A program made the translations under genes and the position numbers. From positions 6,623,001 to 6,687,000 of the forward strand of contig NC_007645.1 of assembly GCF_000012985.1 (NCBI RefSeq): a stretch of 64,000 nucleotides of DNA, given 5' to 3'. Shown in pieces: positions 17,549 to 48,691 of the stretch. The notes beneath the pieces are model-generated. The model had not been told where the DNA came from. It did not search any database and saw only the letters and a program-made list of their open reading frames with translations. Origin of the DNA: Hahella chejuensis KCTC 2396 (GTDB lineage Bacteria; Pseudomonadota; Gammaproteobacteria; Pseudomonadales; Oleiphilaceae). Numbering within the stretch: position 1 is the stretch's first letter; each line of letters opens with the position of its first letter.

Positions 17549-17583
17549 GCATGTTTTTCAGTTCTGATTCAGTTTTATGCTCT

Positions 17584-17740
17584 GGGAAGCCCTTCGACAA
17601 GCTCAGGGCGAACGGCTGATTCCGATTATTGAGACACAGCAGGAACGCAGCCCTTCGACAGGCTCAGGGCGAACGGCTGATTCCGATTATTGAGACGCAG
17701 CAGGAACGCAGCCCTTCGACAGGCTCAGGGCGAACGGTTG
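17584..17740 (+). repeat. REP-type repeats, three tandem copies
   Basis: Three direct copies of a REP core (CTTCGACARGCTCAGG plus GGCGAACGG) spaced by a conserved TTCCGATTATTGAGAC spacer. The core folds into an imperfect palindrome. The same core occurs twice more at 24446-24607. The remainder of the 17549-17856 gap holds no gene. Confidence 0.9.
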
Positions 17741-24352: not shown

Positions 24353-24445
24353 GCTTGCTTGCGTCCTATGTATTTTATTGCGCCGGTGAGTATAGGGTTA
24401 GCTGTTTGGTTCAGGCAAAGGCGTCTGGGCTACCGGGGGTTTCTT

Positions 24446-24607
24446 TGGCGCTCTGGGGGGCCCTTCGACCGGCTCAGGGCGAACGGGGCATAGGGTGGCC
24501 CGACGGATGAAAGTATGTGTGAGTGGGAGTTGTATTGGATTAGTCTTTGCTGTGGGTTCGTTGGCGCTCTGGGAGGCCCTTCGACAAGCTCAGGGCGAAC
24601 GGGGGGT
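24446..24607 (+). repeat. REP-type repeats, two direct copies
   Basis: Two copies of the REP core CTTCGACMRGCTCAGG each preceded by a conserved TTGGCGCTCTGGG, so the duplicated unit is about 45 bp. They belong to the same family as 17584-17740. The surrounding gap (24353-24726) has no supported gene. Confidence 0.88.
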
Positions 24608-24726
24608 TTTGTGTCCCGATTTATTCGCTTCTTTTCGCTTGAGGCCAGTCGATGGCTCTTTCCCTGTTCGAATAACTTTGGCATAAAGGCGCTGATTTTA
24701 ATGGGACAGCTTATCAGGAGTCTGAC

Positions 24727-28516: not shown

Positions 28517-29437
28517 TTAACAGTAAACCAAGCAGCCTCGGGCTCTAAGTTCATCGAGCCATTCCGGCTCTTGCAGCCGCTCGGACCAGCGCAGGTCCAG
28601 TTTGCAGAGGTTCTCCAACGACAGGATCGACTCAGGCAACGTCTTAAGACGATTTTTTCTGAGATCCAACAGGCGCAGTTGTTTCAGCTCGCCGATGGAG
28701 TCTGGCAGTTGCTCGATAGGATTATTGCGCAGATCCAACTCTTCCAATGACGCGCAACACCCGATTTCATCTGGCAACGTCGTAATCTGGTTGCCCTCCA
28801 GGAATAACTTACGCAGTTTGATTGAACGACCAATCGTTTGCGGCAGTTCAGTCAGGCGATTGTTCTGGAGATACACTTCTTTCAGCGTTCGGGACAGAAA
28901 GAATGAATCCGGCAAGGCGATAAGACCGCTGTTATACAACCTGAACTCCACCAATGACTCAAAACTGAAATCCTCCGGCAATGCCGTCAGCGGGTTGTCG
29001 CTCAGATTAAGGTAGAGCAATTTGTCCAATTGCTTCAGAGAGCCAGGGAGCGCGGCAATTTTATTGTTGCTGGCGTATAAAAACTCTACGTCACGACAGT
29101 GTGCAATCGAGCCAGGCATCTCACTCAACCTGTTGTGCGCGATATCGATAATCTTCAACTTGGTCAGATTGCCAATCTCACTGGACACCGCTTCCAGCTG
29201 ATTCTTGCTGACGTTCAAATCTTCCAGCTGAGTCAGACTCCAGATCTCAGGCACAATCTCCGCGATCTGGTTATCGAAGACACTGAGTTTTTTCAGTTCC
29301 GCCGCACTTCCGATACTGTGCGGAATAGCGCTGATGCGGTTGCCGTTCAAAGACAACTCACGAAGAGAAGCGTAATCCTCAATGACCGGAAAGGAATCCA
29401 GCTTCTCGTTGTTTATTGAAATAATCCTGTTATTCAC
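28517..29437 (-). CDS. Leucine-rich-repeat protein, last gene of the nucleotide-phosphate operon
   Basis: 306 residues composed almost wholly of about 12 leucine-rich repeats of 22-24 residues with the pattern LPxxIxxLxxLxxLdLxxNxL (for example LPDSIGELKQLRLLDLRKNR). No signal peptide or membrane helix, so it is cytoplasmic. The GTG start overlaps the stop of the upstream CYTH gene by 8 bp, which ties it to the operon translationally. LRR domains bind proteins; here it may be a scaffold or regulator of the operon's enzymes, which is inference. Confidence 0.88.
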   Translation of the reverse strand: MNNRIISINNEKLDSFPVIEDYASLRELSLNGNRISAIPHSIGSAAELKKLSVFDNQIAEIVPEIWSLTQLEDLNVSKNQLEAVSSEIGNLTKLKIIDIAHNRLSEMPGSIAHCRDVEFLYASNNKIAALPGSLKQLDKLLYLNLSDNPLTALPEDFSFESLVEFRLYNSGLIALPDSFFLSRTLKEVYLQNNRLTELPQTIGRSIKLRKLFLEGNQITTLPDEIGCCASLEELDLRNNPIEQLPDSIGELKQLRLLDLRKNRLKTLPESILSLENLCKLDLRWSERLQEPEWLDELRARGCLVYC

Positions 29438-29924
29438 TTTCAGAGTTCCACGAGGTAAAAGGCGTATGGTAAAGGTAAGCGTTACGATAACGGCGGTCTT
29501 CAGTCACCTCAAGCCCTAGCCAGTCTGGGGAAGCAAACGGCTCATCTACGCTATCAAGCTCAATCTCAGCCATCACTAAGCCTTGGTTGTCGCCGTGAAA
29601 TACATCGACGGACCATTCTTTATTCGAAACGGACACTATGTATCTGGTTTTCTCAATTGGCGGGCGCTCCATCGCGGACGCAAACAAACTTTCTCCGTCC
29701 GCCACAGGAATCGGGTACTCATACTCCTCGCGAACGATACCAGTCTGATTCACCTTGACGGTGAGATAGTAGTTATCGTTTTTATTTCGCAAGCGCACTT
29801 CCTTATTTGCATCCAAGAACATATAGCCCTGCCGGATCTGATGAATGGACTTAACCTCCATACGCTCAGGATCAAAGCGCTCTACAAGAAACTTCCGTTC
29901 TATTTCCAGGTTGTCCATTTTCAT
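29430..29924 (-). CDS. CYTH-domain triphosphatase (triphosphate tunnel metalloenzyme)
   Basis: 164 residues, the normal size of single-domain bacterial CYTH proteins. The signature ExExK is intact at the N-terminus (E7-I-E9-R-K11), followed by RQGYMFL, EVRLRNK and the second acidic strand EIELD. Such enzymes hydrolyse inorganic triphosphate or nucleoside triphosphates with a divalent metal, or in some members make cAMP. The ATG overlaps the TGA of the MFS gene by one base, and the LRR gene overlaps its 3' end, so expression is coupled. Confidence 0.9.
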   Translation of the reverse strand: MKMDNLEIERKFLVERFDPERMEVKSIHQIRQGYMFLDANKEVRLRNKNDNYYLTVKVNQTGIVREEYEYPIPVADGESLFASAMERPPIEKTRYIVSVSNKEWSVDVFHGDNQGLVMAEIELDSVDEPFASPDWLGLEVTEDRRYRNAYLYHTPFTSWNSESE

Positions 29925-31105
29925 CACTCTTGGGTTACGACTTCTCTTAGTTTCACTTCAAGCCTTAAATATGAAAGCAGGCTGAATATCAGGGCCGCCA
30001 CTGATACAGCGGCAAAAAGATATTTCAAATTATCCCAGTCGCCATTAACGACAAACAGTGAAGCGACAATAGGGCCAAAGAACGAACCGAAGTTGCCCGT
30101 GTGAATATAGCCGGACTTAATTTCTATCATTTCATGCTCATTGAAAGCCACCAATGTCACCAGAGAGAAAACAGCGCCTTCAAATACGCCCAGGAATAGA
30201 AAGTGAATGCAGTAATGGAGCGGCGATAAATCATCCGTATCAAACATATAGGCCACATTAACGCCAATAAAAACCGCCGAAATGGCGATCATTAATAGCG
30301 GAGAGACGTTCTTGCTGATCAGATACGAGGTTACCAGGACCGAGAAGACTCCCAGTAAGGTGCAAATGAAGATGATAGTAGTAGCGTAGTCGATGCCTTC
30401 TGCTGAGTTCTCCGATAGAAAGGAGGTAATCATGGACACGCTTGAAATGTACATCAGCGTAAAACACAGAAACACCATCATGATGAGCTGATAGGGTCTG
30501 TGCGTTAGCAACCTTTTATAGATAGACAGACCAAAACCGTCAGCGTTCGTCTGGGCAGGCGTTGCTTCTTTGGCCTTGTGATAGACGCTCATGTACGCCG
30601 CCAGCAAACACAGGAGCATGAGTGAGTGCGCCAAAAACACCGCATTCCAAGAAAAAATCGTGATGATGTAAGGAAAAATAACGTTGGCGGCGGCAAAACC
30701 TACTCCAAACACAGCCCCCCATAACGCCATCACGACATTAGTGTTGTTCTTACACACTTTGAACAGGAGAGTCGGGATGGCGATCATCATCAGGATATTG
30801 GTGATCCCCTCCACTACCCTTAGAAAAACGAAAACATATGATTCTGTTGTGAAGTACATCGCCAGCGAAGCCAGAGACGCGACCACCAAAGACCGGGTCA
30901 CAATGACTTCTACGCTTAATTTTTTAACAAGACTCGCCAGATAAGCCCCAAAGAAAATGCCTATAAAGCTGATCATAGAAAGAATTGAGTTGGCTTCGAC
31001 GATGGTCATTCCCATGTCTGACGAAAGATAGGGAACAATGATTGGGAACTTCGAGTACTGAAATACAACAACCACTCCCAACAAGAACAAAAAGGCAACC
31101 TTCAC
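29924..31105 (-). CDS. MFS transporter
   Basis: 393 residues with 12 hydrophobic segments and two six-helix halves separated by a charged loop near 185-205 (HKAKEATPAQTNADG). No N-terminal signal. Major facilitator proteins of this size usually export or import small organic molecules by proton exchange. Its place in an operon of nucleotide-phosphate enzymes suggests that it moves the pathway's product or precursor. Codon use is distinctly more AT-rich than in the flanking backbone genes. Confidence 0.88.
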   Translation of the reverse strand: MKVAFLFLLGVVVVFQYSKFPIIVPYLSSDMGMTIVEANSILSMISFIGIFFGAYLASLVKKLSVEVIVTRSLVVASLASLAMYFTTESYVFVFLRVVEGITNILMMIAIPTLLFKVCKNNTNVVMALWGAVFGVGFAAANVIFPYIITIFSWNAVFLAHSLMLLCLLAAYMSVYHKAKEATPAQTNADGFGLSIYKRLLTHRPYQLIMMVFLCFTLMYISSVSMITSFLSENSAEGIDYATTIIFICTLLGVFSVLVTSYLISKNVSPLLMIAISAVFIGVNVAYMFDTDDLSPLHYCIHFLFLGVFEGAVFSLVTLVAFNEHEMIEIKSGYIHTGNFGSFFGPIVASLFVVNGDWDNLKYLFAAVSVAALIFSLLSYLRLEVKLREVVTQE

Positions 31106-31121
31106 AAAAGAAACTCCTTTT

Positions 31122-31835
31122 CTACTTAGTAAACAGTAGGACTAACCCATACGCCATGCACAAACCTGTCACTAAATGATTGTACAGTCCACTCTTTATA
31201 TTATTATAAATCAGTTTCCCTACGCTCAAATAAACAGCAATCGCCATGACGGGATAATAATAATTTAGAGAACGAAAATCCTCGCCCAGTATAGTGAAGA
31301 TAACAGTTAGCTGCGCTATAGCAAAGATCAAATATCCATAAGCTATATTACTACGCACTTTTCCCTTATCACTGTATAGACTTGAAGCAAGTATGGTAAG
31401 CAGAGCGCCTCCCATATTAGTCAATCCATGTATCAGCCCCATAATTGGAATGTATGAGAAGAGAAAACGCGAAGCAAAGTGGCCCATAAAAGCAGATGCT
31501 TTAACAGATAACCTTGATATAGCTGTCAACACCATTCCTACACCAATCAGCGAGTATAATACACTGGGCTCGTCAAAACTAGCGGAAAAATATATCCCCA
31601 TAGCAATGGTGGGAATAGATAATAATGGAAGGGTTAATTTAAGTTTATCGAGTTGACGCCATGAGGAACTTACCTGCACCGCACTGATTACCAAAGAGCA
31701 AGGTAAAAGTATAATTAAAGTCTCTATAAAACCATAGCCGAGTATAAGTAGCGTAGGCGTCCCAAAAACCAATAAGCCAACGCCCAATATAGATTGCACG
31801 ACAGAAAATATTAAAACAACTATTACAACATCCAT
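31122..31835 (-). CDS. TSUP (TauE/SafE)-family membrane transporter
   Basis: 237 residues starting at the ATG with GGAG seven bases upstream (an in-frame GTG two codons earlier is less likely). Seven or eight hydrophobic helices, with the family features FG(T)P near residue 25 and GLTNMGGALLTILAS near 136-150. TSUP proteins typically export sulphite, organosulphonates or other small anions. It sits 17 bp after the ApaH gene and 16 bp before the MFS gene in the same operon. AT-rich. Confidence 0.85.
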   Translation of the reverse strand: MDVVIVVLIFSVVQSILGVGLLVFGTPTLLILGYGFIETLIILLPCSLVISAVQVSSSWRQLDKLKLTLPLLSIPTIAMGIYFSASFDEPSVLYSLIGVGMVLTAISRLSVKASAFMGHFASRFLFSYIPIMGLIHGLTNMGGALLTILASSLYSDKGKVRSNIAYGYLIFAIAQLTVIFTILGEDFRSLNYYYPVMAIAVYLSVGKLIYNNIKSGLYNHLVTGLCMAYGLVLLFTK

Positions 31836-31858
31836 TATCACACTCCATTATGTTACAT

Positions 31859-32680
31859 CTATGCATCCGCTTTATGGTCACTCGCCACTTTGGTAATACT
31901 TAAATCATCCAAATTAACTGCACATAAATTCCCTCCCCAGACACAACCGTCGTCGCAGCATATATAATAATCGCTAATGGTCATCCCCAGCGCCGCCCAG
32001 TGACCAAATACAATCTTATAGCCTGCGTTTCTTTTCACATCTCTACACGCATACCAAGGATAGAGACAGTCAGGTTGGGAACCTGGCGCGCAATTGAATG
32101 AAGTATTCATAAGGCCATTAGAATCCACAAACTTAACCCGGGTTAGCGCTTGTGCGGTATATATAAGGTTTGATTCAAAATCATTGCTTAGTCCATCAGG
32201 CAATCCAACGCTGTACATCTTGCGTAGAAGCCACTCATATCCATGCTCCGCTATGGATTCTTCCAATAACTTCACCTGTTTTCTGAGCTGACTGACCGGC
32301 CAGTTGAGTGGTATTCCTCCATGCACCACAATGACAGCGCCGCCCTCATCCCAATGAGCGAATTTGGCGTCTTCAAGCCAGGCGACATAGTCCTTGGCTC
32401 TTGGGCTGCGCAACAGTCTTTCCGTGCGATCCGACTTCTTCGGCGCAGCCAATCCATAATGCGTCGCAAGAAGTTTCAGGTCATGGTTGCCAAGCACCTT
32501 AACCACCGCGTCGCCATACTCCATGAGCTGCGCTATCACTTCTTCGGAAGCGGGGCCTCTACCCACCAGGTCGCCAGCAAGAATGAGCTTGTCGTAAAGG
32601 CGGTTGAACTTAATTTTCCGAAGCAGGCGGTTTAACTCATCCGCACAGCCATGAATATCTCCAATGATATAAGTGCTCAT
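31859..32680 (-). CDS. apaH: ApaH-type symmetrical bis(5'-nucleosyl)-tetraphosphatase
   Basis: 273 residues, the normal ApaH length. All metallophosphoesterase blocks are present: GDIHG at 7-11, GDLVGRGP at 36-43, GNHD at 64-67, VHGGIP near 119, and VFGHWAALG. The ApaH-specific stretches ALTRVKF, PWYACRD and DDGCVWGGNL are also recognisable, which separates it from generic PP2A-like phosphatases. ApaH cleaves Ap4A into two ADP. Housekeeping apaH normally sits with ksgA-apaG; here it lies in an accessory operon, so it is probably a second, dedicated copy. It overlaps the NDK-like gene by 4 bp. Confidence 0.85.
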   Translation of the reverse strand: MSTYIIGDIHGCADELNRLLRKIKFNRLYDKLILAGDLVGRGPASEEVIAQLMEYGDAVVKVLGNHDLKLLATHYGLAAPKKSDRTERLLRSPRAKDYVAWLEDAKFAHWDEGGAVIVVHGGIPLNWPVSQLRKQVKLLEESIAEHGYEWLLRKMYSVGLPDGLSNDFESNLIYTAQALTRVKFVDSNGLMNTSFNCAPGSQPDCLYPWYACRDVKRNAGYKIVFGHWAALGMTISDYYICCDDGCVWGGNLCAVNLDDLSITKVASDHKADA

Positions 32681-33492
32681 AACTCATTAACTTCCACTTT
32701 GTTCTGCACTTTTATCGCTCTCATTAAATCTACCTCCCTGATTCCATCCTGCTGACAGCCAGACAGATGCATAGCATTTCTTGATATATTTATATCAATT
32801 CTGAAGTTATCTTTATTTCTATAAAGAAATCCTCTTAATGAGTCCGGATGACTTTCTTCTGGGTTCGTACTTCCTTGTAGAAAGCACTTCAATACATCAA
32901 AGGACGTATCCGAATAAAAAGTAAAAAAAATAGAACGGCTTTTATCCGCTAGAAAGTGACTAAGCTGAAGTGGATAAAATCCATTCGCCAGAATTACTTT
33001 TTTTCCATCCAGGTCCGCCTTAACAACATAAAGTCCTTCCTCAATGCGGACAGCAGGCTCTCCACAATGCCAGAGCGCCATAAGACGCTGGCTAGAGTAG
33101 CCTATACGTTGTAACGACAGACTTCCGTATACCTCGCACTCGGAGCCGGAAAGCGCAACAATGCGCGCGTACAGCTCCTGATTTGCAGCGAACTCATTGG
33201 GAGACATGGAAGCGTATACATAGGCTTTTTCATATACGCCATTGATCAAGTTATGTTCTTTTAGATAGCCGCCAGGGAGAATATGACAACTGTCAATGCA
33301 AACACCGTATTTATCACAAAGCTGGTGAAAGTATGAAAATACCTCTTTCGTATTAATCAAACTATTCGCCAGTTCCGGCTTCAGAATTATCAAGCCATTT
33401 GAAGCATCGAAGCTTGGTTTTTTGTATAAATGAGATCTATGCTTGCACCTGATTTCCCTGAAACAACTCTGCAAAAATCCATTTTTACTCAT
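32677..33492 (-). CDS. NDK-like protein (diverged nucleoside diphosphate kinase fold)
   Basis: 271 residues. The N-terminal third has LIILKPELAN (KPE at 38-40, compare KPD of NDK). Near the C-terminus, PDSLRGFL (217-223, compare GTIRGDF) is followed by N239-A-M-H242, the same N-x-x-H spacing that positions the phosphorylated histidine in NDKs, then a helix ending REVDL. The middle is longer and quite unlike ordinary NDKs (about 140 residues). I therefore call it NDK-like with a conserved catalytic histidine; activity and substrate are open. It overlaps apaH by 4 bp and follows the histidine phosphatase by 5 bp. Confidence 0.55.
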   Translation of the reverse strand: MSKNGFLQSCFREIRCKHRSHLYKKPSFDASNGLIILKPELANSLINTKEVFSYFHQLCDKYGVCIDSCHILPGGYLKEHNLINGVYEKAYVYASMSPNEFAANQELYARIVALSGSECEVYGSLSLQRIGYSSQRLMALWHCGEPAVRIEEGLYVVKADLDGKKVILANGFYPLQLSHFLADKSRSIFFTFYSDTSFDVLKCFLQGSTNPEESHPDSLRGFLYRNKDNFRIDINISRNAMHLSGCQQDGIREVDLMRAIKVQNKVEVNEL

Positions 33493-33497
33493 AAAAT

Positions 33498-34064
33498 TTA
33501 AGTCACCATTTCCAATGGCAGGTGATTACATTCATTAAGCGCATCCAAATGCCATCGGGAGCGACGCCATGTAAGCGTCGTTAAAGAACAATTTTTTATC
33601 TGGTAGCAAACGGTGTCCGTACTATGAATAACTCTCAGAATAGTTTTAATCACGCCTCCATGAGTAAATAGAAAGACATCCTTACTTTCATTGTGCGTAA
33701 GCTGTTTGAATACATCTGCAACAGCGCGCCTGAAATCCAGATACCTTTGACTATCGGAAAGTAACCGCTCATGCTTCGCCGGATGTGCGAAACCTGGCAG
33801 CTCGCTCGCCACATGAAAACTTGCTTCCTTCAATCCGGTAGCAATCGAGTAATTAACGCCAGCCGCGTTTACTGTCTGCACAGACCGGATCAACGGACTG
33901 CTATAAAATACGCTTTCTGTTTGATTGCCGTTGACGAGGGCGGAGAGTCTTCCCCCAAGTAACAACGATTGCCTGACGCCAAGCTCAGTGAGAGCGCTGT
34001 CTTTACTTGCGCTCTCTCCAGTTTGCCACTTGGATTGGCCATGCCTGATAAGGTGTACTTTCAT
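33498..34064 (-). CDS. Histidine phosphatase superfamily protein
   Basis: 188 residues. The catalytic RHG motif is at the N-terminus (LIRHGQSKW at 5-13, active His8), with the paired arginine in SPLIRSVQT and the second histidine in FTHGGVIKT near 131. This is the phosphoglycerate-mutase-like branch 1 fold, which includes phosphatases for nucleoside and cobalamin intermediates. Its place between a CYTH-like and an NDK-like gene suggests dephosphorylation of a pathway intermediate. No signal peptide. Confidence 0.88.
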   Translation of the reverse strand: MKVHLIRHGQSKWQTGESASKDSALTELGVRQSLLLGGRLSALVNGNQTESVFYSSPLIRSVQTVNAAGVNYSIATGLKEASFHVASELPGFAHPAKHERLLSDSQRYLDFRRAVADVFKQLTHNESKDVFLFTHGGVIKTILRVIHSTDTVCYQIKNCSLTTLTWRRSRWHLDALNECNHLPLEMVT

Positions 34065-34113
34065 TATCTTCCCAAAGATCAGCCGGACACAGATTGCGTC
34101 CGGCTATCGCCAG

Positions 34114-34935
34114 TTACTCTATTCCTAGCGCTTCAGCCGCGCGCTGATATTTGATGTCATAGATAACCTTGGTTGAGAATCGCTGCTTCAAGCTATCCAC
34201 CAGATAGTCAATCAGCTCGATAATGCGCACATCTTCAGAGATTTCTTTTTTGATTCTTGGATATATGGAAATTTCCACTTCCTGGAAAAAAGCCTTTCGT
34301 TCTCCATTAATATCCTTTCTGTAATCCATAACTCTGGACCGATCCAAAGAGCAACGAAGTACGTCATACTCGTCAATCCGGACAAAGAACGTAGAGCGAT
34401 TGCCAAAAAGGAGCACAGCTGGCTCCAGCTCTTCGCCAGAGATATTAAACTCCCTGAACAAATACTTACCTGGCTGATCAAGCTCTTTATCTTTTAATAA
34501 GTCTTTTACAATTTTGACGGACTCAGGGCTGTATGGAGCCTCCTGAATTTGCTTTTTCTTCTCGTCCTGAAAAACATGGCGGCGATCCAGCCGGTTTCCA
34601 TGCTCGTTTTCCGGCATTTTAAAAGCGCAGAAAGCATGAGTGACTTTATTGCACGAAGTCCGTAAAAGCGCACCAGTCGGCAAGAGCTTATAATCTTTGG
34701 TGTCGTAGTAGACGGCGGTATTTAGAGGCGGATTCTCCCTGACGCCTTCTTTTTCCAGGAAGCGCACGCCGTTGATGTGTTTCGCCGCATCTTCAGCCAC
34801 GAAGTCCAACCATTCAAAATACTGCTCATCCGTCACGCCATTCATATCAACTTTTACCGCAAGTTGATTAAATACGTTATGGCCTTTTTTTACTTCAAAA
34901 ACTGGTTGAGAGTTATCTATCTTCAGACTTTTCAT
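34114..34935 (-). CDS. Diverged CYTH-like protein
   Basis: 273 residues. YYDTKDYKLLPTGALLRTS near 77-95 matches the CYTH pattern YyDT.d..L...g..LR.R; later FFVRIDEYDVLRCSLDR and FQEVEISIYP supply the paired acidic strands. The N-terminal ExExK is not clean (VFEVKKG), so catalysis could be altered. It could also be related to VTC-like polyphosphate polymerase folds, which share the tunnel. It overlaps the cupin-like gene by 4 bp. This is the second CYTH-like protein of the operon. Confidence 0.6.
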   Translation of the reverse strand: MKSLKIDNSQPVFEVKKGHNVFNQLAVKVDMNGVTDEQYFEWLDFVAEDAAKHINGVRFLEKEGVRENPPLNTAVYYDTKDYKLLPTGALLRTSCNKVTHAFCAFKMPENEHGNRLDRRHVFQDEKKKQIQEAPYSPESVKIVKDLLKDKELDQPGKYLFREFNISGEELEPAVLLFGNRSTFFVRIDEYDVLRCSLDRSRVMDYRKDINGERKAFFQEVEISIYPRIKKEISEDVRIIELIDYLVDSLKQRFSTKVIYDIKYQRAAEALGIE

Positions 34936-35678
34936 GCTGATTCCAAAATCCTTCTTAGTTTATTTTCCAATTGCGCCGGGCTCATCATAGGGGTGTTATG
35001 TTCCTTGCCACGATCTGGATAGAACGTGTTATAGGTATTTGTGAACTCCCTTTCTCTTGGGCCACGCAGCACAAAAGTGCATAACGCTTCGCCTTTTTCA
35101 GGGAAATTAACCCTGTGCGTAACGAGATAGTTTAGGTAGTAGGTTTGCCCCTGAACGTATTCTGTTTTAGCAATCTTGTTCAATTGGGCTTCGCTTTCAA
35201 AGTCACAGGTATGAATATTTCCTGTTTTTGAAGGCATGTATTTATATTTACGAAATGTTTTCAGCTCAACTGACTCTTCATCCGCCTCAATAAAATTATC
35301 AGAAGAAAGTTTTCCTCTGAATATATGAGACCAGAAACTGAACCGGTGATTATGAACTAACTCTTCATGCCTTTTAGAGTCGTCCAGATTTGGGTTCCAA
35401 TTATGCAAGGTCAGTCTATACCCTCTTGGATCAGGGTTATCTATTAGTACTATTTTGTCGAAGTGATTGACGTGCTCGTACGAGCGTCCCGCAATTTTAT
35501 CCAACAATTCTTCAGAGTTCAGAATCTCCAACAGCATACGCTCTGGGATATTTTCTTTAACAAGCCCTTTCATAAAGTCCAAGTTATATTTTATGGCCTC
35601 TTCAGTACTCACATCCTTTGGTAGGTCAAGTAGTTTTTCGGCTACTTCGTCTAAAATTGATAGCTCTGTTAACTGCAC
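34932..35678 (-). CDS. Cupin-like protein, first gene of the nucleotide-phosphate operon
   Basis: 248 residues from a GTG with AGGGA seven bases upstream. An alpha-helical N-terminal part (1-85) is followed by a beta-rich half containing HNHRFSFWSHIFRGKL and, later, YYLNYLVTHRVNFPEKG, with alternating strands ending in LCTFVLRGPRE. The H-x-H ... H pattern with an R/K-G turn is what a cupin metal site looks like. The enzyme could be an oxygenase or epimerase, or the domain could bind a ligand. No closer family recognised. Confidence 0.6.
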   Translation of the reverse strand: MQLTELSILDEVAEKLLDLPKDVSTEEAIKYNLDFMKGLVKENIPERMLLEILNSEELLDKIAGRSYEHVNHFDKIVLIDNPDPRGYRLTLHNWNPNLDDSKRHEELVHNHRFSFWSHIFRGKLSSDNFIEADEESVELKTFRKYKYMPSKTGNIHTCDFESEAQLNKIAKTEYVQGQTYYLNYLVTHRVNFPEKGEALCTFVLRGPREREFTNTYNTFYPDRGKEHNTPMMSPAQLENKLRRILESA

Positions 35679-36515: not shown

Positions 36516-37475
36516 ATGACTATCACTATTACCAGTTCTGTAGGTATAAATGGTGCCAATAGGAGAAATGACGTCGCTATCATCCAAGCACTGATTAATG
36601 CCTTTGACGCCTGGAAAACTGAGATTAAACCATTAACGGTAGACGGTAAAATTGGAAACAAATCCATTTATGCCATAAAAGAATTTCAAAAACAGGCAAT
36701 TGGAATAAGACACCCCGATGGCAGGGTAGATCCCAATGGAAAAACTTTTCGATATTTAACCATGTATTTAAGCAATGATGAGCTATCTCTCCTGGAAACC
36801 TCACTGTTTAATGGAAAAGAAGCAACTCTCATAGTTTCTACTAAAAAAATACAGTCATTCTCTGGCCTAAGTGGTCAAACTGTCACCTACAAAAGCACCC
36901 TTCCGAAGGATCAGCAACTTGTATCAAATTATGCTATTTCTGTTATAAAGATAGCGCTTAAAGAAGCAGGAATGTCCCACGCAGTTATTACCTCAACCCT
37001 TCGAACGCCGAGTGAGCAGGCGAAACTAATGTATAAAAATGCAAAGCTCAATCTGAAGAAACAGTATGCTTTATACGGTCGAAATGGTGACAAAGTCCTA
37101 GATATATATGATAGTAACAAGGAAAAATCAGAGAGCGACATTATTAGCTTAATGGAGGACGAGATAGTAAATCTTGAGAAGGCCGGAAAAAGGGTGTCAA
37201 AGCATTGTGTTTCCGAGAGCTCATACAAAACCTTAAACGTCTTCGATATTGGCTACAATTCAACAAAGTCCGCAAGCAAAAATTTCAATAAAGAAAAATT
37301 TCACAACGCATTAAGTCAACTCAATAAAGATGGGTACATAAGCCAGTTAATTGATGAGACAAACAAATCAAATAAGTGCTGGCATATAGAAATTATCCCA
37401 AATAATAAGGCACTCCCTATATATGACAAAGGATCTATCTTAAACCCCATAAAATACATAAATGGACTTTGCTAA
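36516..37475 (+). CDS. Peptidoglycan-binding plus M15-type peptidase, candidate antibacterial effector
   Basis: 319 residues with no signal peptide. Residues 15-80 form a peptidoglycan-binding domain (TVDGKIGNKSIYAIKEFQ). The C-terminal half looks like an M15 D,D- or L,D-carboxypeptidase: SKH at 228-230, NVFDIGY with D244, and CWHIEI with H290 supply the usual H...D...H zinc ligands. A cytoplasmic-start, secreted-by-other-means wall hydrolase followed 12 bp later by a periplasmic lipoprotein is the classic effector-immunity layout, for instance for type VI secretion; no secretion genes are in the window. AT-rich compared with the backbone. Confidence 0.65.
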   Translation: MTITITSSVGINGANRRNDVAIIQALINAFDAWKTEIKPLTVDGKIGNKSIYAIKEFQKQAIGIRHPDGRVDPNGKTFRYLTMYLSNDELSLLETSLFNGKEATLIVSTKKIQSFSGLSGQTVTYKSTLPKDQQLVSNYAISVIKIALKEAGMSHAVITSTLRTPSEQAKLMYKNAKLNLKKQYALYGRNGDKVLDIYDSNKEKSESDIISLMEDEIVNLEKAGKRVSKHCVSESSYKTLNVFDIGYNSTKSASKNFNKEKFHNALSQLNKDGYISQLIDETNKSNKCWHIEIIPNNKALPIYDKGSILNPIKYINGLC

Positions 37476-38262: not shown

Positions 38263-39657
38263 TCAACTGCCGCTTGGCAGTGGAGCGCCGATGGGTTGCA
38301 TGTCGAGGAGGATATTTTTTGCTTCTTGTTTCCATTGCAGAGGCAACGAATAGTTGGGGAATCTGAGTGCTAGCACCGCCCCCTCGTTGAGTAAAGCGCG
38401 TACATTCGCCGGCATTTCCTGGTCCAGTTCCGCGCAGCCCTCGGCGTTCACTAAACCGCTAAAAGAAAGCGGTTCGACTTCGCCCAGCGCTTTGTGCGCT
38501 TCCAGACGCCAGCTCGAATTTTCGCCGATGTTGAATTGCTCTCCATGAGGCTGACTGAATCCCAGTCCGCAGGCTTTGAGAACGATCGGCAGCGCGGGGA
38601 GAGGCTGAGCTGTTCGTTTTTGATCACGCAAAAATTTCCCCCAGATCAGGCGGGCTTCAGGCGAGTTCAGCGATACGTAGTTATAATCATCCGGCTTGCG
38701 TAGGGCCTCCAGCCGTTTCAGGCCTTGTTCCAGTTTGTCTATGTCGGTTTCGTATCTGAGTTCCTCTTCCAACAGGTTTCTGGCGGGTTGGCGGGCCGCT
38801 TCCAGCCCTGACAGGGAGGCTTTCTCGTAGTGAATCAACGCCTGTTCTCTATTGCGCTCTTCCTGACCCCATCCCATTTCCGCAATGCGGGCCAGATGAT
38901 AGTGGGCCACCGGCTCGTCCTGCGCGGCGCTTTTGCTGAAGGCGGATTGGGCTTCCACGTAGTTTTTCTCATCAAGCATTAGCACCCCGTAGTTGGTCCA
39001 TGCCTGCCTGAGGCCTCTGTCCATCCCCTTCTGCAGCCACTCCACCGCCTGCTTTCTCATGGCGGACGAGTCAAAACTATCACGCTCTCCCGGCAATAAG
39101 TGTCTGGACATCTGGTAAGCGCGCACATATTGCCGGGAGGCTTCGAAGTCATAGCCTGCGTCCGGTTTCAACTCATGCGCCTGAGCGTAGTAATCGCCGG
39201 ACTTGAGAATGTTGGGAAGCACGCCCGCCACGGCAAACACAGACGTAGGATCGGGCTCGTTATACGCAACCGCGAAATTAATATACGTAGGCATCTTCAA
39301 CCCCCGCTCCAGCGCTTCCTGCAAAAGCGGTATTGCGGCCTTGGGTCGCCCGGCGTCAATCTCCATCACGCCCAGGTTATGGCTGGCTCGCGCAGAGCCT
39401 TTCTCCCGAGCCTGTTGATAAAAAGCACGCGCCTGCTCGCGGTCCTCATTAACGCCTTTTCCAAGATCGTGAGCTTTACCAAGCAAAAACAGGGCGTCTG
39501 CATCACCCTTGGCCGCGGCGTCACGAGCCTGAGAAAAAAATTCATCGTACTGCCCGCTGTTGAACAACTCTTCCGGCGTTGCGGCGCACGCGGAACGCCA
39601 ACCGGCGCCGCTTATCAGTAATCCACACAGCAGTCCGGCCAAATAGTGTTTTTTCAT
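38263..39657 (-). CDS. Sel1-repeat/TPR secreted protein
   Basis: 464 residues. A signal peptide is present (1-25, with AAT cleavage region). Sel1-like repeats follow, for example ALFLLGKAHDLGKGVNEDREQARAF (split over 55-80) and ARIAEMGWGQEERNREQALIHY. The C-terminal 120 residues are not repetitive. Such proteins are often periplasmic protein-interaction or quality-control factors. Codon use is backbone-like, so it may be native gene content inside the accessory region. Confidence 0.82.
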   Translation of the reverse strand: MKKHYLAGLLCGLLISGAGWRSACAATPEELFNSGQYDEFFSQARDAAAKGDADALFLLGKAHDLGKGVNEDREQARAFYQQAREKGSARASHNLGVMEIDAGRPKAAIPLLQEALERGLKMPTYINFAVAYNEPDPTSVFAVAGVLPNILKSGDYYAQAHELKPDAGYDFEASRQYVRAYQMSRHLLPGERDSFDSSAMRKQAVEWLQKGMDRGLRQAWTNYGVLMLDEKNYVEAQSAFSKSAAQDEPVAHYHLARIAEMGWGQEERNREQALIHYEKASLSGLEAARQPARNLLEEELRYETDIDKLEQGLKRLEALRKPDDYNYVSLNSPEARLIWGKFLRDQKRTAQPLPALPIVLKACGLGFSQPHGEQFNIGENSSWRLEAHKALGEVEPLSFSGLVNAEGCAELDQEMPANVRALLNEGAVLALRFPNYSLPLQWKQEAKNILLDMQPIGAPLPSGS

Positions 39658-40728: not shown

Positions 40729-41307
40729 TCAATGTTTGACGCCGTAGCTCTCGCCGAGCGGATTGGATAAGTCCGAATGGAGAAAAATGCCGGTTAGTTT
40801 TGACTGCCTGTAAGCTTCGGCGAAGGCTTCATTACAAAATATGCCCTGGAAGGTATCCAGTTCCGTTCGGAATATAGGAAAGCCGCCAACCTTGGACTCG
40901 TCAAAGGCGATGTTTACCAAGTTCTGATTAGCATCGTACGCCGTCAAACGCCGATCCACGCCATCCACTTCTTCCGCTGTTCGCAAAGGATTGAATAGGT
41001 AGCCGTGGGATTCGTCAAAGTTAACCGGTAAGAACTCCCCTGCTTGGGCCAAAAGACCGCTCAGTGCTTTGTAGGCCTTTTCATTAAAGAAAAGTCGACC
41101 GTTCCTGGCTGCTATATCTGGGATATTTTTTGCACGGCTTTCTGTCGCTTTAAATCGGATAGTTAACGGTTTCCAAACAGCGCTGTAAGGCACAGGCGAG
41201 CGCTTGATATGAAACGGGTATTCGCGCCCCAGCTTTTTCAGGACTTCGCCCGTGGGGATCTCGAAAGTTAGATAGGATTCCTCATGAATAATACGATATA
41301 TAGTCAT
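40729..41307 (-). CDS. Imm11-like (DUF1629) immunity protein
   Basis: 192 residues from MTIYRIIHEES, whose ATG has GGAAG eight bases upstream (an in-frame ATG five codons earlier has none). The middle matches the Imm11/DUF1629 pattern: NGRLFFNEKAYKAL, EFLPVNF, VDGVDRRLTAYD, FPIFRTELD, then FAEAYRQSKLTGIFLHSDL. Such proteins neutralise polymorphic toxins. No toxin gene is adjacent, so it is an orphan. Its last 20 codons lie inside the 60-bp direct repeat, so the C-terminus may have been altered by recombination. Confidence 0.7.
   Translation of the reverse strand: MTIYRIIHEESYLTFEIPTGEVLKKLGREYPFHIKRSPVPYSAVWKPLTIRFKATESRAKNIPDIAARNGRLFFNEKAYKALSGLLAQAGEFLPVNFDESHGYLFNPLRTAEEVDGVDRRLTAYDANQNLVNIAFDESKVGGFPIFRTELDTFQGIFCNEAFAEAYRQSKLTGIFLHSDLSNPLGESYGVKH
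40736..40799 (+). repeat. 60-bp direct repeat, copy B (inside the Imm11-like gene)
   Basis: Near-identical (one mismatch) to 39893-39952. It starts with ACGCCGTAGCTCTCGCC and continues through GGATTGGATAAGTCC and GAGAAAAATGCCGGTTAG. Here it encodes the end of the immunity protein. Confidence 0.85.
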
Positions 41308-41378
41308 GTTTATATCTTCCATCCAAAGCTTCGTAGAACTATAAGCTCACCACTCCAATTAATCATTTTTAACATTAA

Positions 41379-43300: not shown

Positions 43301-45292
43301 TTAGAATCCTTCTATATCATCTTCAACATTCTTCATACATACACGAAAATAAGAAAATTCATCATCTGTTATCTCCTTTGCATGAGCATCAACTCTGGAT
43401 GAGTTTATAAATTCCAAAGTGGAGAAAACATCTTTTTTCGTTCTTGAGAAAACGTGATTAAAAACATCCCAATTCTTTGAAATTATTTTTGATATATCCG
43501 AAAAATATATTTCACTCTTATTAGGGTCAAAAATCTCTCTATATTTACTTCCTTTTAGCCTGTCTTTTCTTGGATTACCAAATATTTCTAAAACTTTTTC
43601 TTTTGCTTTATTCTCACCGAAGCTGACCATCAAAACCATTCTAACAATATTTCTTAATTTAACCTCCGCCCTATTCCTTCTTTCTGATATCTCGCTCCAC
43701 TTTTCTTGAACCGTAAGTCTCAATTTTTGATACTTATCCTTCCCTACAATATAGTCCTTAACCGCATCAATATTAAAATCATATCCAAGCCTATTTTTTC
43801 TAATTATCCCATACCCTATTAGATGAGACGTATATGAGTGATGCATTTCTGCAAACCCATTAAAACTCTCAAAGTCCTCGTTTGCCAGCATAGATAACAT
43901 ATCATACTCATCTGGATAAAATTCTTTCAAAACGACTATAATCATTTCTATATAGTTTGAGCAGTTCGTCATAAAGTCGTCTTTCCCCTTCTTATACGCC
44001 AATCTATCAATATCTACAGGACGTTCCTTATCGCTAACATTCTTCGATATCAAACTACACACATGTCGCATAAGAAAAGGATGACCTCCAAAATCTTCTG
44101 TCAGCCTTGAGAACACTGCTTCGTTGAACTTTAAACCCATTCTCCTACCAAGCTTCCTAACCATTTCTCGAGTATCTCTAACTTCAAACCCTGGTATATA
44201 TGTTGGCTGAAAATGGTTGAATATAGGATTATCTATACTGTCTATCTTGGGTAGCTCGACACATGTCGGATTTGTACCAACAATCAAATACGACAATAGA
44301 CGATCATTTCTTTGAAAGATTGATCTAAGTGTTTGCCAAAACAAAGCAAAGTCTATTCCATTTCGCCAGTGTTCCGAAGATGCTGTATCTCGAGATATAT
44401 TTTCTATTTCATCAAAAATAAAAAACAGTGGTATCTTTTTAATATCTCTACAAGAAATTAGAAACTCTTCGAAGAAAATAGATGCATTTTTTTCATTAAA
44501 TTCACTCTCTCTAGGCAAACTTGTTGATAAATTTAATATGGACTTAACTCTAACACACATGTAATGCAAAGCTTCATTCCATCTCCTCTGATTAAAAGAC
44601 GTATCTTGACAATCAATAATTATAGACTGAATACCTTCTCTCTGAAGGTTCCTTTCAATACCATTAACCAGTGATGTCTTACCGGTTTTTCGAAGCCCAA
44701 ATAGCCCCGAATTCTCTCCACTCTTAAACCTATTAACAAGCTCTTGAATCAAATCATTTCTACCAAAAAAATAAATATCTTTTTTTAATGGAGCCTCAAA
44801 GGCAAACAAGTCCCTACTATAAAAATACTTTCTAAATCTATTCCTAAAAAAATACTGATCATCAACTCTCTTTAACTCCTCATATGAAAATGGAATAATT
44901 ATTTGCGACTCAGGCTCACTTTTAATCAAGTCGGTTAAAGATGACTCAACATTTTCGTCCTTACTTATCAACACATTACATATCTTCTCTATACGTAACG
45001 TTGAATGACGCCTTACCACATGTTCGAATACATCAAGAGTTCTAGCCTGAATCCTCTCATAAGGACTAAACACAACAACAATTTCCCTATCAAGGTTAAA
45101 CATATCCTTATAAATTTCTGTTGGACTTACAATTATATATCTATATTCACTATTTATTCCCAACTGAACCTTCTCACCACCATGTGTAACATAAAACTCT
45201 TTTGAAACCACTTCTATTATGGATTTCTCTACATCCAAGAAATGGTTATATTTAAGAAGCTTATGCTTTCCAGGATATACAGTATTTCCCAT
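43301..45292 (-). CDS. AAA/STAND-like ATPase with C-terminal HEPN-like domain, candidate defence gene
   Basis: 663 residues from the ATG after AGGAGG (a GTG six bases earlier overlaps that site). Residues 1-165 have no recognised fold. An AAA_35/Orc1-like ATPase follows: Walker A GLRKTGKTS (199-207), Walker B FFIFDE (about 290-295), a sensor region IVGTNPT, and GGHPFLMRHV near 402. After a winged-helix-like stretch, the last 140 residues look like a HEPN domain: RNRAEVKLRNIV, a long helix and INSSRVDAHAKEIT, with R633 and H637 as the possible RNase pair. ATPase-HEPN fusions are typical of abortive infection. Strikingly AT-rich; the flanking backbone genes are GC-rich. Confidence 0.65.
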   Translation of the reverse strand: MGNTVYPGKHKLLKYNHFLDVEKSIIEVVSKEFYVTHGGEKVQLGINSEYRYIIVSPTEIYKDMFNLDREIVVVFSPYERIQARTLDVFEHVVRRHSTLRIEKICNVLISKDENVESSLTDLIKSEPESQIIIPFSYEELKRVDDQYFFRNRFRKYFYSRDLFAFEAPLKKDIYFFGRNDLIQELVNRFKSGENSGLFGLRKTGKTSLVNGIERNLQREGIQSIIIDCQDTSFNQRRWNEALHYMCVRVKSILNLSTSLPRESEFNEKNASIFFEEFLISCRDIKKIPLFFIFDEIENISRDTASSEHWRNGIDFALFWQTLRSIFQRNDRLLSYLIVGTNPTCVELPKIDSIDNPIFNHFQPTYIPGFEVRDTREMVRKLGRRMGLKFNEAVFSRLTEDFGGHPFLMRHVCSLISKNVSDKERPVDIDRLAYKKGKDDFMTNCSNYIEMIIVVLKEFYPDEYDMLSMLANEDFESFNGFAEMHHSYTSHLIGYGIIRKNRLGYDFNIDAVKDYIVGKDKYQKLRLTVQEKWSEISERRNRAEVKLRNIVRMVLMVSFGENKAKEKVLEIFGNPRKDRLKGSKYREIFDPNKSEIYFSDISKIISKNWDVFNHVFSRTKKDVFSTLEFINSSRVDAHAKEITDDEFSYFRVCMKNVEDDIEGF

Positions 45293-45344
45293 GCCCACCT
45301 CCTAAAATAAAATTCAATATATTTTCTCCATCAATACTCCCCCC

Positions 45345-48300: not shown

Positions 48301-48413
48301 GATTGCGACCTTGGCGGGGAGTTGGCGCCCGTCTCCGGCGTGCGGCAACTGGCGAGCAGTAACGACAGACAAACCGATACGCCGCCGACGAGGGTCAGAA
48401 CATCCTTACGCAT
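45345..48413 (-). CDS. Multihaem c-type cytochrome lipoprotein (six CxxCH)
   Basis: 1022 residues from the ATG that follows AGGAGG. The N-terminus is a lipoprotein signal (LLLASC), so the mature protein is anchored by lipid. Six haem-binding motifs occur in order: CLRCH, CLGCH, CLSCH, CTVCH, CGTCH, CQGCH. The last third is haem-free and beta-rich (NKTGHRFPSG, VDGKGIPL). Proteins like this move electrons in the periplasm or at the outer surface. No redox partner or biogenesis gene is adjacent. Its 3' end lies 47 bp from the AT-rich ATPase gene. Confidence 0.88.
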   Translation of the reverse strand: MRKDVLTLVGGVSVCLSLLLASCRTPETGANSPPRSQSASQSDGQPADLPLPTSMPLRDYEKVLYTWLMQYDYKKLGWKHDKGVRDTGPFIRNEYFGTHPAVRIFYSPEVMRWLEGGRQGDIPDGSMIIKEMYTAPGVLYQDLAKDPKYQADPAAYEAMLGKLLTAWTVMVRDKAGSKDGWFWAGPSAPGEGQTVEKAVDSQLDNYSHAPYSSFGAPCLRCHGSAENMFTFSALRNIEGFFPEEYPLRFFVDTSWRSPEHMSNYPLSLLKDDPYAQSVFEIPELQRPWEDSEVPGLQAFLSQHMGQAELSALPMKNEALPNPNSAFLKQFPELARSVYLKVKPFPSQWADHVVPGPDGAEAFITSSNCLGCHGGLGGLPYGVTMFLQTGPNYGDGFNVSEYGEWRWSPMGLAGRDPIFHSQLESEMAYVAADGLMTPTPLKGSVADTQTAITNTCLSCHGAMGQRQLEIDAATDPALDPNFKVDYFYLTQVLSAAEPKPADYAYHKYGELAREGISCTVCHHINEPSAEQVASWNPANPGWLTPLTPKELAFGLFHNSTGRFERGPDDEYYGPFKDVSTRPMEDVLGVKPVHNGFMKDSQMCGTCHTINLPNIGMTQNPYPVLDAAETNPAFKDYPHTIEQATFLEWQNSAFAQGENDPNSDFKSCQGCHMPGGFETLDGSVKIDQLVTQIAAIQDANFPAAEHTLPLEDIDIPLRPDYNRHEHVGLNVFLLEMFDQFPDILGVDKTDYMTGADNGVDLAIDNMILQAQKETVDIDVKVEGVSNGVLTANVTLTNKTGHRFPSGVAFRRAFLEFLVMDGDKVVWGSGRTNSVGVIVDGKGIPLKTEFLPSPDAYQPHYQLITQENQVQIYEELNQNAQHEFTTSFVHRVYSPKDNRLLPKGWRVSTVFKPQGQVMEQFMAVTDPHGVGDDPDYQDQGPGFKGQDALTYKVTLPSGVNTGALSVKATLYYQSIPPYWLKQRFTTTPNGVATQRLYYMVSRLNLEGTPMENWKLVLKSMKVSGF

Positions 48414-48691
48414 AGCAACCTCCTCGCTATGTGAGCGCAACGCGACGGTCAACGCCGACGTCACGGCTCCTTTGCACCCATGGCAATCACTTTTTATCCC
48501 GACAACGCGCCGTTGCGGGGTCAGTCGCGCTTCATCCGATGCATCCCCCCTCCAGGATGTCGGCGACCTGACATTACAAAAGTTTTAGACCATGTTTGAA
48601 ATTACGCAAGGCGGGAGATAACGGAAAAAAGGCGGGGAGGCCCTGCCGCGCAGAGCGATGGACATGCGCGGCGAACGGCCTGGAGAGGCGT

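Follow-up and report, generated by a model that had tools for sequence, protein, structure and literature searches.

A compact gene cluster of Hahella chejuensis with a four-gene core that may act on a phosphorylated, nucleotide-like substrate

What might a run of tightly packed genes be for, if it joins relatives of nucleotide- and phosphate-handling enzymes to a cupin, two transporters and a leucine-rich-repeat (LRR) protein? Such a set lies on the minus strand of Hahella chejuensis KCTC 2396, where nine open reading frames (ORFs) occupy positions 28517–35678 of the window, the 64,000-nucleotide stretch of DNA that was analysed (Table 1). From the cupin gene onward, the junctions are a 4-bp overlap (cupin/CYTH-like), gaps of 49 bp (CYTH-like/phosphatase) and 5 bp (phosphatase/NDK-like), a 4-bp overlap (NDK-like/ApaH), gaps of 17 bp (ApaH/TSUP) and 16 bp (TSUP/MFS), and overlaps of 4 bp (MFS/short CYTH) and 8 bp (short CYTH/LRR). 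With a largest gap of 49 bp and four overlaps of 4–8 bp, the tight gene order described in the original prediction is real.

Table 1 Genes of the cluster in window coordinates.
Feature	Position	Strand	Basis
Cupin, 3-His thiol-dioxygenase-like, core	34932..35678	-	ORF, hhalign, conserved His
CYTH/TTM-like protein without N-terminal acidic patch, core	34114..34935	-	ORF, hhalign
Histidine phosphatase, core	33498..34064	-	PF00300 and catalytic residues
NDK-like protein, core	32677..33492	-	hhalign and conserved residues
ApaH-type symmetrical Np4N hydrolase, accessory, Hahella loci only	31859..32680	-	NF001204
TSUP (TauE/SafE) transporter, accessory	31122..31841	-	PF01925
MFS transporter, accessory	29924..31105	-	PF07690
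Short CYTH protein, accessory, predicted inorganic triphosphatase	29430..29927	-	PF01928 and ExExK motif
Leucine-rich-repeat protein, accessory, Hahella loci only	28517..29437	-	LRR_8

The GC content of the nine cluster genes is 0.386–0.492, against 0.58–0.61 for six of the nine other window genes that were measured (those at 7–27 kb and 45–53 kb), which bears out the AT-richness that had been ascribed to the operon. The right-hand neighbours are mixed (0.370 for 36516–37475, 0.560 for 38263–39657 and 0.334 for 43301–45298); since low-GC genes lie just to the right of the cluster, the AT-rich region extends beyond the operon. A promoter scan returned 10 matches, fewer than the mean of 16.1 in shuffled sequences, and a terminator scan returned 14 matches compared to 8.3 in shuffles.

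The gene families also stand together in other genomes. Hahella sp. HN01 has the full set of nine in the same order, and four loci of the Pantoea group hold six of the nine families together (cupin, CYTH-like, MFS, NDK-like, histidine phosphatase and TSUP), a degree of linkage that rules out chance neighbours. The co-occurrence for which the original prediction had called thus extends beyond H. chejuensis for most of the set and stops short of the remainder: ApaH, the short CYTH protein and the LRR protein were not matched in those Pantoea-group stretches that were searched and therefore do not belong to the common machinery. The Pantoea-group version adds a deoxynucleoside-kinase homologue (E = 9.5e-6, just under the cut-off), and in Pantoea-like bacteria the cluster is found on plasmids. 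It is seldom met and patchily distributed (1 of 369 Gammaproteobacteria); the NDK-like protein is present in two of seven Hahella genomes, E. coli gave no DNA match to the P. alfalfae cupin-to-phosphatase region at the sensitivity of blastn, and a search in the three-genome order around genome G075 found nothing.

Plasmid carriage elsewhere and an AT-rich setting that holds, 5–10 kb from the Hahella cluster, an AAA_35/STAND-like gene (43301–45298) and an Imm11-type gene (40729–41322) would suit an anti-phage or competition module acting via a modified nucleotide. We consider such a module very improbable: when the nine proteins were run through PADLOC 2.0.0, a single match was obtained up to E = 0.1 (at 0.041), which leaves a known defence system without support. 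None of 50,697 phage records matched the cupin, and alignments A1, A2, A6 and A9 had no relatives in viral contigs; this speaks against phage cargo, and says little on defence either way.

The family names that had been given from the sequence alone were recovered by Pfam or NCBIfam models for the LRR, short CYTH, MFS, TSUP, ApaH and histidine phosphatase proteins; those of the NDK-like, CYTH-like and cupin proteins needed profile–profile comparison, the last two being without any relevant match to either model collection. The histidine phosphatase scores 85.1 bits with PF00300 (cut-off 21.7), and its catalytic residues R7, H8, R60, E80 and H135 are present in all eight homologues. ApaH lies above the cut-off of NF001204 (264.7 vs 176) and below that of TIGR00668 (176.5 vs 222.85). 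The TSUP protein just passes PF01925 (TauE; 32.9 vs 32.6) and is 30% identical to the TSUP protein of P. alfalfae, and the MFS protein matches PF07690 (MFS_1, E = 1.9e-31) and has 23% identity to its P. alfalfae counterpart. The LRR protein (LRR_8, E = 4.2e-34) is 88% identical in Hahella sp. HN01. The short CYTH protein scores 48.5 bits with PF01928 (cut-off 23.2) and, as it carries the ExExK motif in the form EIERK, is predicted to be an inorganic triphosphatase; a relative of it (44%) is encoded divergently to the cupin gene on a contig of a Bacteriovorax metagenome-assembled genome. The Pfam and NCBIfam scans named no enzyme of the Hahella cluster that is a classical signature of biosynthesis, which counts against a biosynthetic role.

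The NDK-like protein falls below the Pfam threshold for nucleoside diphosphate kinases (NDKs; PF00334, 12.7 bits vs a gathering score of 27, E = 0.12), and two of its eight homologues have a Pfam NDK match (best E = 0.0093). Aligned as a profile of eight homologues to 25 NDKs, the family matched with an hhalign p of 6.7e-5 (0.0022 before the reference set was cleaned and enlarged once), compared to at least 0.12 for 11 controls, over 37–57 columns of the C-terminal motif region. The Hahella pair alone gave p = 9.3e-4 (best control 0.10), the five Pantoea proteins a weak p = 0.031 (best control 0.061) and the Parageobacillus protein no match (p = 0.16). The link to NDK, as judged from these profiles, is carried by the Hahella proteins. 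Separate profiles join the Hahella, Pantoea and Parageobacillus proteins into one family (p = 1.8e-5, 7.3e-9 and 0.0019). Residues K38, R220, N239, H242 and S244 are present in all eight homologues, as are a KPE motif (KPD in NDK), a G...R stretch and an N-x-x-H-x-S motif; we take H242 in the latter to occupy the position of the catalytic histidine of NDK, and R220 that of a phosphate-binding arginine. The Hahella rows of the alignment contain the GSTNP motif of NDK, the Pantoea rows do not. At 209–334 amino acids, the NDK-like proteins are longer than NDKs.

The CYTH-like protein, which is 54% identical to its P. alfalfae homologue, had no match to PF01928 in four members. Compared with YgiF-type CYTH proteins it gave p = 8.5e-4 (0.013 before the reference set was cleaned and enlarged once), against at least 0.043 for nine non-CYTH controls; with five short triphosphate tunnel metalloenzymes (TTMs) p was 0.32, and a comparison in global mode gave 0.086. 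With CYTH/TTM enzymes such as YgiF, NeuTTM, AtTTM3 and Vtc4p it shares conserved basic residues and an ExE pair near the C-terminus (E219-V-E221). In hydrolytic TTMs, the N-terminal Glu pair of an acidic patch activates water, according to the available part of PMC4641920. The CYTH-like proteins differ in that all eight homologues lack this ExExK patch and have Q24, A26 (Ser in locus L019) and K28 in its place, with the N-terminal register aligned by eye. The same excerpted source describes the polyphosphate polymerase Vtc4p as also being without that metal site (PMC4641920). The protein thus appears weakly linked to CYTH and would be devoid of the acidic patch of the hydrolytic members.

The cupin was also missed by the corresponding Pfam model, as no thiol-dioxygenase match (PF05995) was found in six members. 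Its profile matched 10 thiol-dioxygenase-type proteins with p = 7.3e-4, compared to at least 0.073 for 12 control queries and at least 0.064 for 11 other families. This is the third of three successive reference profiles (p = 0.12, 0.0061 and 7.3e-4), the first two of which were smaller; the first, a CDO profile, included one wrong-frame sequence and was replaced. Over 148 aligned columns, H109, H111 and H188, conserved in all eight homologues, align with the HxH and HR motifs of the reference, and presumably occupy the positions of the 3-His metal triad of thiol dioxygenases (cysteine and 3-mercaptopropionate dioxygenase). In contrast to these enzymes, the cupin family has a long segment between the His motifs that does not align, and two additional invariant histidines, H92 and H156. 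The cupin is probably a relative of the 3-His thiol dioxygenases, a kinship that the original prediction had overlooked.

Taken one by one, the family links of these three core proteins are weak, as neither Pfam nor PDB sequence searches reached significance. Six profiles run against the sequences of the PDB yielded no convincing match: NDK chains were found at E = 0.14–0.43, below unrelated chains that were taken as chance matches (Rop protein at 0.02, an ABC-F protein at 0.023 and ferritins at 0.026–0.045). AlphaFold2 models built from three and two sequences were unusable (pLDDT 37 and 38).

This inventory bears on the idea that the NDK-like, CYTH-like, ApaH and phosphatase proteins form a signalling or metabolite-repair module that controls how much of an alarmone-like nucleotide is present or removes toxic polyphosphates, with the transporters as outputs. 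The ApaH and short CYTH families degrade dinucleoside polyphosphates and inorganic triphosphate, respectively, as stated in the accessible portion of PMC3440374, which would fit. Yet neither of them, nor the LRR protein, has a match in the Pantoea-group stretches, the CYTH-like protein is without the water-activating patch (PMC4641920, in part), and a cupin oxygenase would be unexpected in such a module. We therefore regard this explanation as improbable.

The smallest carrier genomes narrow the set further. In a 1.1-Mb genome, intact cupin, CYTH-like, NDK-like and histidine phosphatase genes lie together with RepA- and RepB-type genes on a plasmid-like contig of 6905 bp, a reduction to the four genes that we call the core. 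Three small-genome loci gave no significant match to the MFS, TSUP and kinase genes, and as both transporter genes are missing there, they are not indispensable in these bacteria. The core itself is intact in one of the three small genomes, since in Ca. P. carbekii the CYTH-like gene is split and no NDK-like match was found, and since the NDK-like gene of locus L020 has an internal stop. Between two small-genome loci, dN/dS is 0.14–0.19 for three genes, compared to 0.03–0.07 between Pantoea-group loci, where computable, for the CYTH-like and phosphatase genes; the higher ratio resembles that expected under relaxed selection. In a 61-genome sample of the Pantoea group, the sole genome below 2 Mb has the gene, as do three of the 60 others, which does not prove that small genomes are enriched in it. 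Some of the shrunken carrier genomes are related to insect gut symbionts.

A more distant relative of the NDK-like protein (24% identity) is found in a plasmid cluster of Parageobacillus caldoxylosilyticus (loci L008/L092), where its gene overlaps that of a SurE nucleotidase and is accompanied by an MFS gene, much as in the Hahella set. Unlike the latter, this cluster also holds MIPS, methionine adenosyltransferase, aminotransferase pieces, SDR and Nudix genes, a content that appears aminocyclitol-like; no cupin, CYTH-like protein or related phosphatase was found in L008. In three bacterial groups, the NDK-like gene directly adjoins a phosphatase gene (histidine phosphatase, or SurE in Parageobacillus). 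A precedent is RosC, a histidine-superfamily phosphatase that dephosphorylates a modified nucleotide-like intermediate in the synthesis of the antibiotic roseoflavin, as given in an excerpt of PMC12051542; it belongs to the superfamily of the cluster phosphatase, the likeness is one of role only, and family scans name no flavin-modifying gene in the Hahella cluster. Two other candidates were set aside: judging from partial texts, the Pantoea antibiotic PNP-1 is made by a different seven-gene cluster (PMC4010436), and Synteruptor GI-9 has no more in common with the set than a histidine phosphatase and an MFS label (PMC11195616). Excerpts of stink-bug symbiont genome papers mention plasmids, not this set (PMC7218078, PMC8032781), and no description of it was found in the literature searched, a body that leaves out most subscription journals.

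Considering (i) the linkage of six families, (ii) the deoxynucleoside-kinase homologue and (iii) the NDK-like gene beside a phosphatase gene, we tentatively favour a horizontally mobile cassette for the synthesis of a specialised small molecule from a phosphorylated, nucleotide-like substrate, a reading that we hold to be a real possibility while stopping short of calling it probable. The low GC content, the plasmid location elsewhere, the presence of the NDK-like protein in two of seven Hahella genomes, the intact core on the 6905-bp contig and the dN/dS of 0.14–0.19 also speak for it. The CYTH-like and NDK-like proteins, with their phosphate-handling folds, would act on the substrate, the cupin would oxidise it, perhaps at sulfur, the phosphatase would take off the phosphate in a final step, like RosC in the roseoflavin pathway, and the MFS and TSUP proteins would export the product. 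ApaH and the short CYTH protein might, in Hahella, clear by-products (Np4N and inorganic triphosphate), for the second of which there is a triphosphatase precedent (PMC3440374, as far as the excerpt goes); the Pantoea group has the nucleoside-kinase homologue instead. We infer the substrate, product, step order, transport direction and biological role. The suggestion that the operon makes, processes and exports a phosphorylated nucleotide-like molecule thus survives in outline, tempered by the absence of the transporters from the three small-genome loci and by the dependence of the NDK link on the Hahella proteins. ApaH as a protector of the cell is kept as a proposal for Hahella, outside the machinery shared with the Pantoea group.

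The same genes could be read in the opposite direction, as a salvage or catabolic module in which an organic phosphate, nucleoside or organosulfur compound enters through MFS and TSUP, is trapped by kinase homologues, and is degraded to nutrients by the phosphatases and the cupin. The deoxynucleoside-kinase homologue of the Pantoea group, the numerous hydrolases of Hahella (ApaH, CYTH, phosphatase), the suitability of a thiol-dioxygenase relative for sulfur catabolism and the retention of the core in one small genome all agree with this, but the lack of significant transporter and kinase matches in the three small-genome loci, the rare and patchy occurrence, and the place of an NDK-like relative in an aminocyclitol-like cluster do not, and we judge salvage to be rather unlikely.

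A bolder version of the cassette that makes a small molecule would have the core handle a triphosphate-bearing, sulfur-containing intermediate on the way to a new class of metabolite, with the CYTH-like protein, devoid of a water-activating site, transferring rather than hydrolysing, the NDK-like protein dedicated to phosphotransfer and the cupin oxidising sulfur; a shrunken lineage of insect gut symbionts would then have kept the core on a mini-plasmid since its product serves the host or the symbiosis. We think it quite unlikely that all of this holds. Should the favoured reading of a small-molecule cassette hold, two textbook folds (NDK and CYTH) would have acquired new chemistry and the 3-His cupins a new substrate, and a natural-product or symbiosis gene set would have come to light that ordinary genome mining likely misses, as no classical biosynthetic enzyme is named in the Hahella version and Pfam thresholds leave three of the four core proteins unnamed. 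For finding the product, the four-gene contig of the 1.1-Mb genome points to a minimal set of few genes.

ORF calling agrees with the nine minus-strand ORFs that the original prediction placed across 35678–28517 of the window (cupin, CYTH-like, histidine phosphatase, NDK-like, ApaH, TSUP, MFS, short CYTH, LRR). No gap between neighbors exceeds 49 bp, and four junctions overlap, three by 4 bp and one by 8 bp. The AT-richness claimed for this operon is also borne out: the GC content of the nine genes is 0.386–0.492 compared to 0.58–0.61 for genes measured at 7–27 kb and 45–53 kb, and the 36–45 kb stretch just right of the cluster is mixed, in part more AT-rich than the cluster. The genome is a single contig of 7,215,267 bp. 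Pfam and NCBIfam name six of the proteins, namely the histidine phosphatase, ApaH (passing one equivalog model out of two), TauE/TSUP (by a narrow margin), MFS, CYTH, and LRR, and give no safe name to the other three, the cupin, CYTH-like, and NDK-like proteins, which with the phosphatase form the core.

Location of the genes and features discussed (window coordinates unless a locus or genome is given)
Feature	Location	Strand	Observation
Cupin gene	34932-35678	minus	core
CYTH-like gene	34114-34935	minus	core
Histidine phosphatase gene	33498-34064	minus	core
NDK-like gene	32677-33492	minus	core
Imm11-type gene	40729-41322		same accessory region as the cluster
AAA_35/STAND-like protein gene	43301-45298		very AT-rich (GC 0.334); same accessory region
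1039-aa protein gene	45345-48464		cytochrome c-type and P460-like matches; adjoins AT-rich region
Short repeats (~27-66 bp)	17579-17737, 24442-24618		common to both places and Hahella sp. HN01; ORF over the second place encodes a PELVEG-like peptide
Third CYTH domain of the window's genome	G000:C1:6512696-6513178 (L084)		~140 kb from the cluster
VOC/glyoxalase-family gene (Pantoea alfalfae)	L005:8378-8776		divergent to cupin gene; copies in L007, L024, L025
Four-gene set (small-genome locus L020)	L020:3306-6766	minus	inositol monophosphatase, Nudix, DegT aminotransferase, Gfo/Idh dehydrogenase; 1.2-4.7 kb upstream of cupin gene
Parageobacillus cluster	L092:5989-20189		NDK-like gene beside SurE; MFS, nucleotidyltransferase-like protein, PqqD-type protein, HAD hydrolase, inositol-phosphate synthase; methionine adenosyltransferase, aminotransferase pieces, SDR, small P-loop ATPase, weak APH match, Nudix

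For the three unnamed proteins, sequence searches of Pfam and the PDB found no convincing match, and two AlphaFold models were unusable. Family links were examined by profile–profile comparison (hhalign) with unrelated families as controls. The NDK-like profile (eight homologues) matches 25 NDKs with p = 6.7e-5 (score 36.6; 11 control profiles, p ≥ 0.12) and matched an earlier set of 12 with p = 0.0022. Taken by group, the Hahella pair gives p = 9.3e-4, the five Pantoea-group proteins give 0.031 with a best control of 0.061, and Parageobacillus gives 0.16; the NDK link thus rests mainly on Hahella. The groups are also linked mutually: Pantoea to Hahella with p = 1.8e-5 across 196 columns (the Pantoea profile gave p ≥ 0.061 with 12 controls), Hahella to Parageobacillus with p = 7.3e-9, and Pantoea to Parageobacillus with p = 0.0019. 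Lys38, Arg220, Asn239, and His242, counterparts of residues with roles in NDK, are present in all eight homologues.

The cupin aligns with ten thiol-dioxygenase-type proteins across 148 columns (p = 7.3e-4). Twelve control queries gave p ≥ 0.073, and 11 other families compared with the cupin profile gave p ≥ 0.064. Smaller, earlier reference sets gave 0.12 (a set with one wrong sequence) and 0.0061. His109, His111, and His188 are found in 8/8 homologues.

The CYTH-like protein matches YgiF-type CYTH domains with p = 8.5e-4 (nine non-CYTH controls, p ≥ 0.043), a first CYTH reference set with p = 0.013, and five short TTMs not at all (p = 0.32); global mode gave p = 0.086 and a poor alignment. 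In a mixed alignment with CYTH proteins, the Y-Y-D-T, L-R, and E-V-E motifs and the last Lys are in register. Where hydrolytic TTMs carry two N-terminal Glu residues, all eight CYTH-like homologues, positioned by eye, have Gln24 and Ala26 (Ser in one). According to an excerpt of PMC4641920, these Glu residues help to hold the water-activating metal in TTMs, and Vtc4p is without this site. Considering the replacement of these residues and their role in TTMs, the CYTH-like protein may bind triphosphate but not hydrolyze it in the usual way.

The original prediction looked to the same families occurring together in other genomes, and they are present elsewhere, rarely. Hahella sp. HN01, the nearest named match found for the window's genome, carries all nine genes collinearly (protein identity 79–99%), and of 58 relatives' genomes sampled, two have the NDK-like protein, both from among the seven Hahella. 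In overlapping samples, the CYTH-like profile matched 1/369 Gammaproteobacteria (the window's own genome), 2/394 genomes in the order around G196, 0/3 in that around G075, and, around P. alfalfae (G689), 5/392 in the family and 4/61 in the genus. Among 72,556 plasmid records, the cupin and CYTH-like proteins occur in the same three: P. alfalfae p1_CQ10, Erwiniaceae bacterium PD-1 pPD-1, and Candidatus Pantoea carbekii pBMSBPS4, whose source is the stink bug Halyomorpha halys. Beyond these lie the small-genome loci L019 (G464 C7) and L020 (G1152 C1) and the Pantoea-group loci L024 (G1208 C25) and L025 (G1192 C5). A 3.2-kb Bacteriovorax MAG contig encodes a cupin (57% over 127 residues, truncated where the contig stops) and, in divergent orientation, a short CYTH (44%), an arrangement that links these two genes in a second lineage.

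P. alfalfae, PD-1, L024, and L025 share the order cupin, CYTH-like, MFS, NDK-like, histidine phosphatase, TSUP, and deoxynucleoside-kinase homologue; the cupin reading frame of L024 shifts near the gene start. The P. alfalfae kinase homologue scores slightly below the PF01712 cut-off (25.9 against 27; E = 9.5e-6). As a tblastn query, the Hahella NDK-like protein did not detect that of Pantoea, which was recognized by alignment. ApaH, short CYTH, and LRR had no match in the Pantoea-group stretches searched (14.5 to 20.6 kb each). The VOC-family gene upstream (82–92% identity to the P. alfalfae copy in the other three) could serve self-protection.

Three small genomes carry the core, intact in one and partly broken in two. 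In a 1.1-Mb genome, the 6905-bp contig L019 has all four genes intact; apart from them, its ORFs of at least 70 codons comprise an IncFII RepA-type gene, a RepB-type regulator, and two short ORFs, of which one runs antisense to the phosphatase gene. All four also occur in L020, whose 1.4-Mb genome belongs to the P. alfalfae genus, with one internal stop in the NDK-like gene. A frame change splits the CYTH-like gene of Ca. P. carbekii, where the search for an NDK-like match at E 1e-3 was negative. MFS, TSUP, and kinase had no significant match in L019, the whole Ca. P. carbekii record, or 40,000 bases of the 42,233-base L020 contig; the strongest hit was that of the Pantoea TSUP query in L021 (E = 0.039). 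From their small genomes and kinship, we infer that the bearers of L019 and L020 are insect symbionts.

A conjugative plasmid of Parageobacillus caldoxylosilyticus provides a second setting for the NDK-like protein (24% identity, E = 1e-6). Its gene overlaps that of the SurE nucleotidase, so that an NDK-like gene adjoins a phosphatase gene in three groups. At E ≤ 1, this locus (L008) had no match to the cupin, the CYTH-like protein, or the phosphatase. The gene set looks like an aminocyclitol-type biosynthetic one, whose aminotransferase homologue, with matches in two reading frames, is perhaps broken. The four-gene set of L020 is likewise aminocyclitol- or aminosugar-like, and its DegT aminotransferase shares 42% and 32% identity with the two Parageobacillus pieces; as genes like this set had no match in the other loci tested, the link is perhaps due to chance.

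Combining these findings, we propose that the cluster is most likely a mobile cassette for a specialized metabolite. The NDK-like and CYTH-like proteins would perform phosphotransfer or triphosphate handling, the cupin an oxidation step, and the histidine phosphatase a final dephosphorylation, for which the excerpted text of PMC12051542 offers a precedent in RosC of roseoflavin synthesis. One rival to such a synthetic role is salvage or catabolism. ApaH and the short CYTH would serve in Hahella to remove side products of the proposed synthesis; YgiF and NeuTTM are described as inorganic triphosphatases in an excerpt of PMC3440374. Signaling or metabolite repair and defense or competition are further rivals to the metabolite cassette. 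Putative specialized-metabolite clusters are a known kind, and the single parts appear to be divergent members of known folds; no description of this gene set turned up in the literature searched, and both the combination and its reduction, on a small contig, to four genes appear to be new.

Between L019 and L020, dN/dS is 0.19 for the cupin, 0.14 for the CYTH-like protein, and 0.17 for the phosphatase at a near-saturated dS of 1.5–1.9, and the computable Pantoea-group pairs, the remaining ones being saturated, give 0.03–0.04 for CYTH-like, 0.07 for the phosphatase, and 0.12–0.14 for NDK-like. Constraint is therefore visible and, along the small-genome path, looser; free-living ancestry may also form part of this path. 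Identity between Hahella and P. alfalfae falls from 54% (CYTH-like) through 39% (cupin), 34% (phosphatase), 30% (TSUP), and 23% (MFS) to 20–21% (NDK-like). Between P. alfalfae and PD-1, NDK-like (55%) and MFS (62%) are the most divergent, followed by the kinase (73%), cupin (79%), TSUP (80%), phosphatase (83%), and CYTH-like protein (88%), and our guess is that these two fastest genes may set the product or its export.
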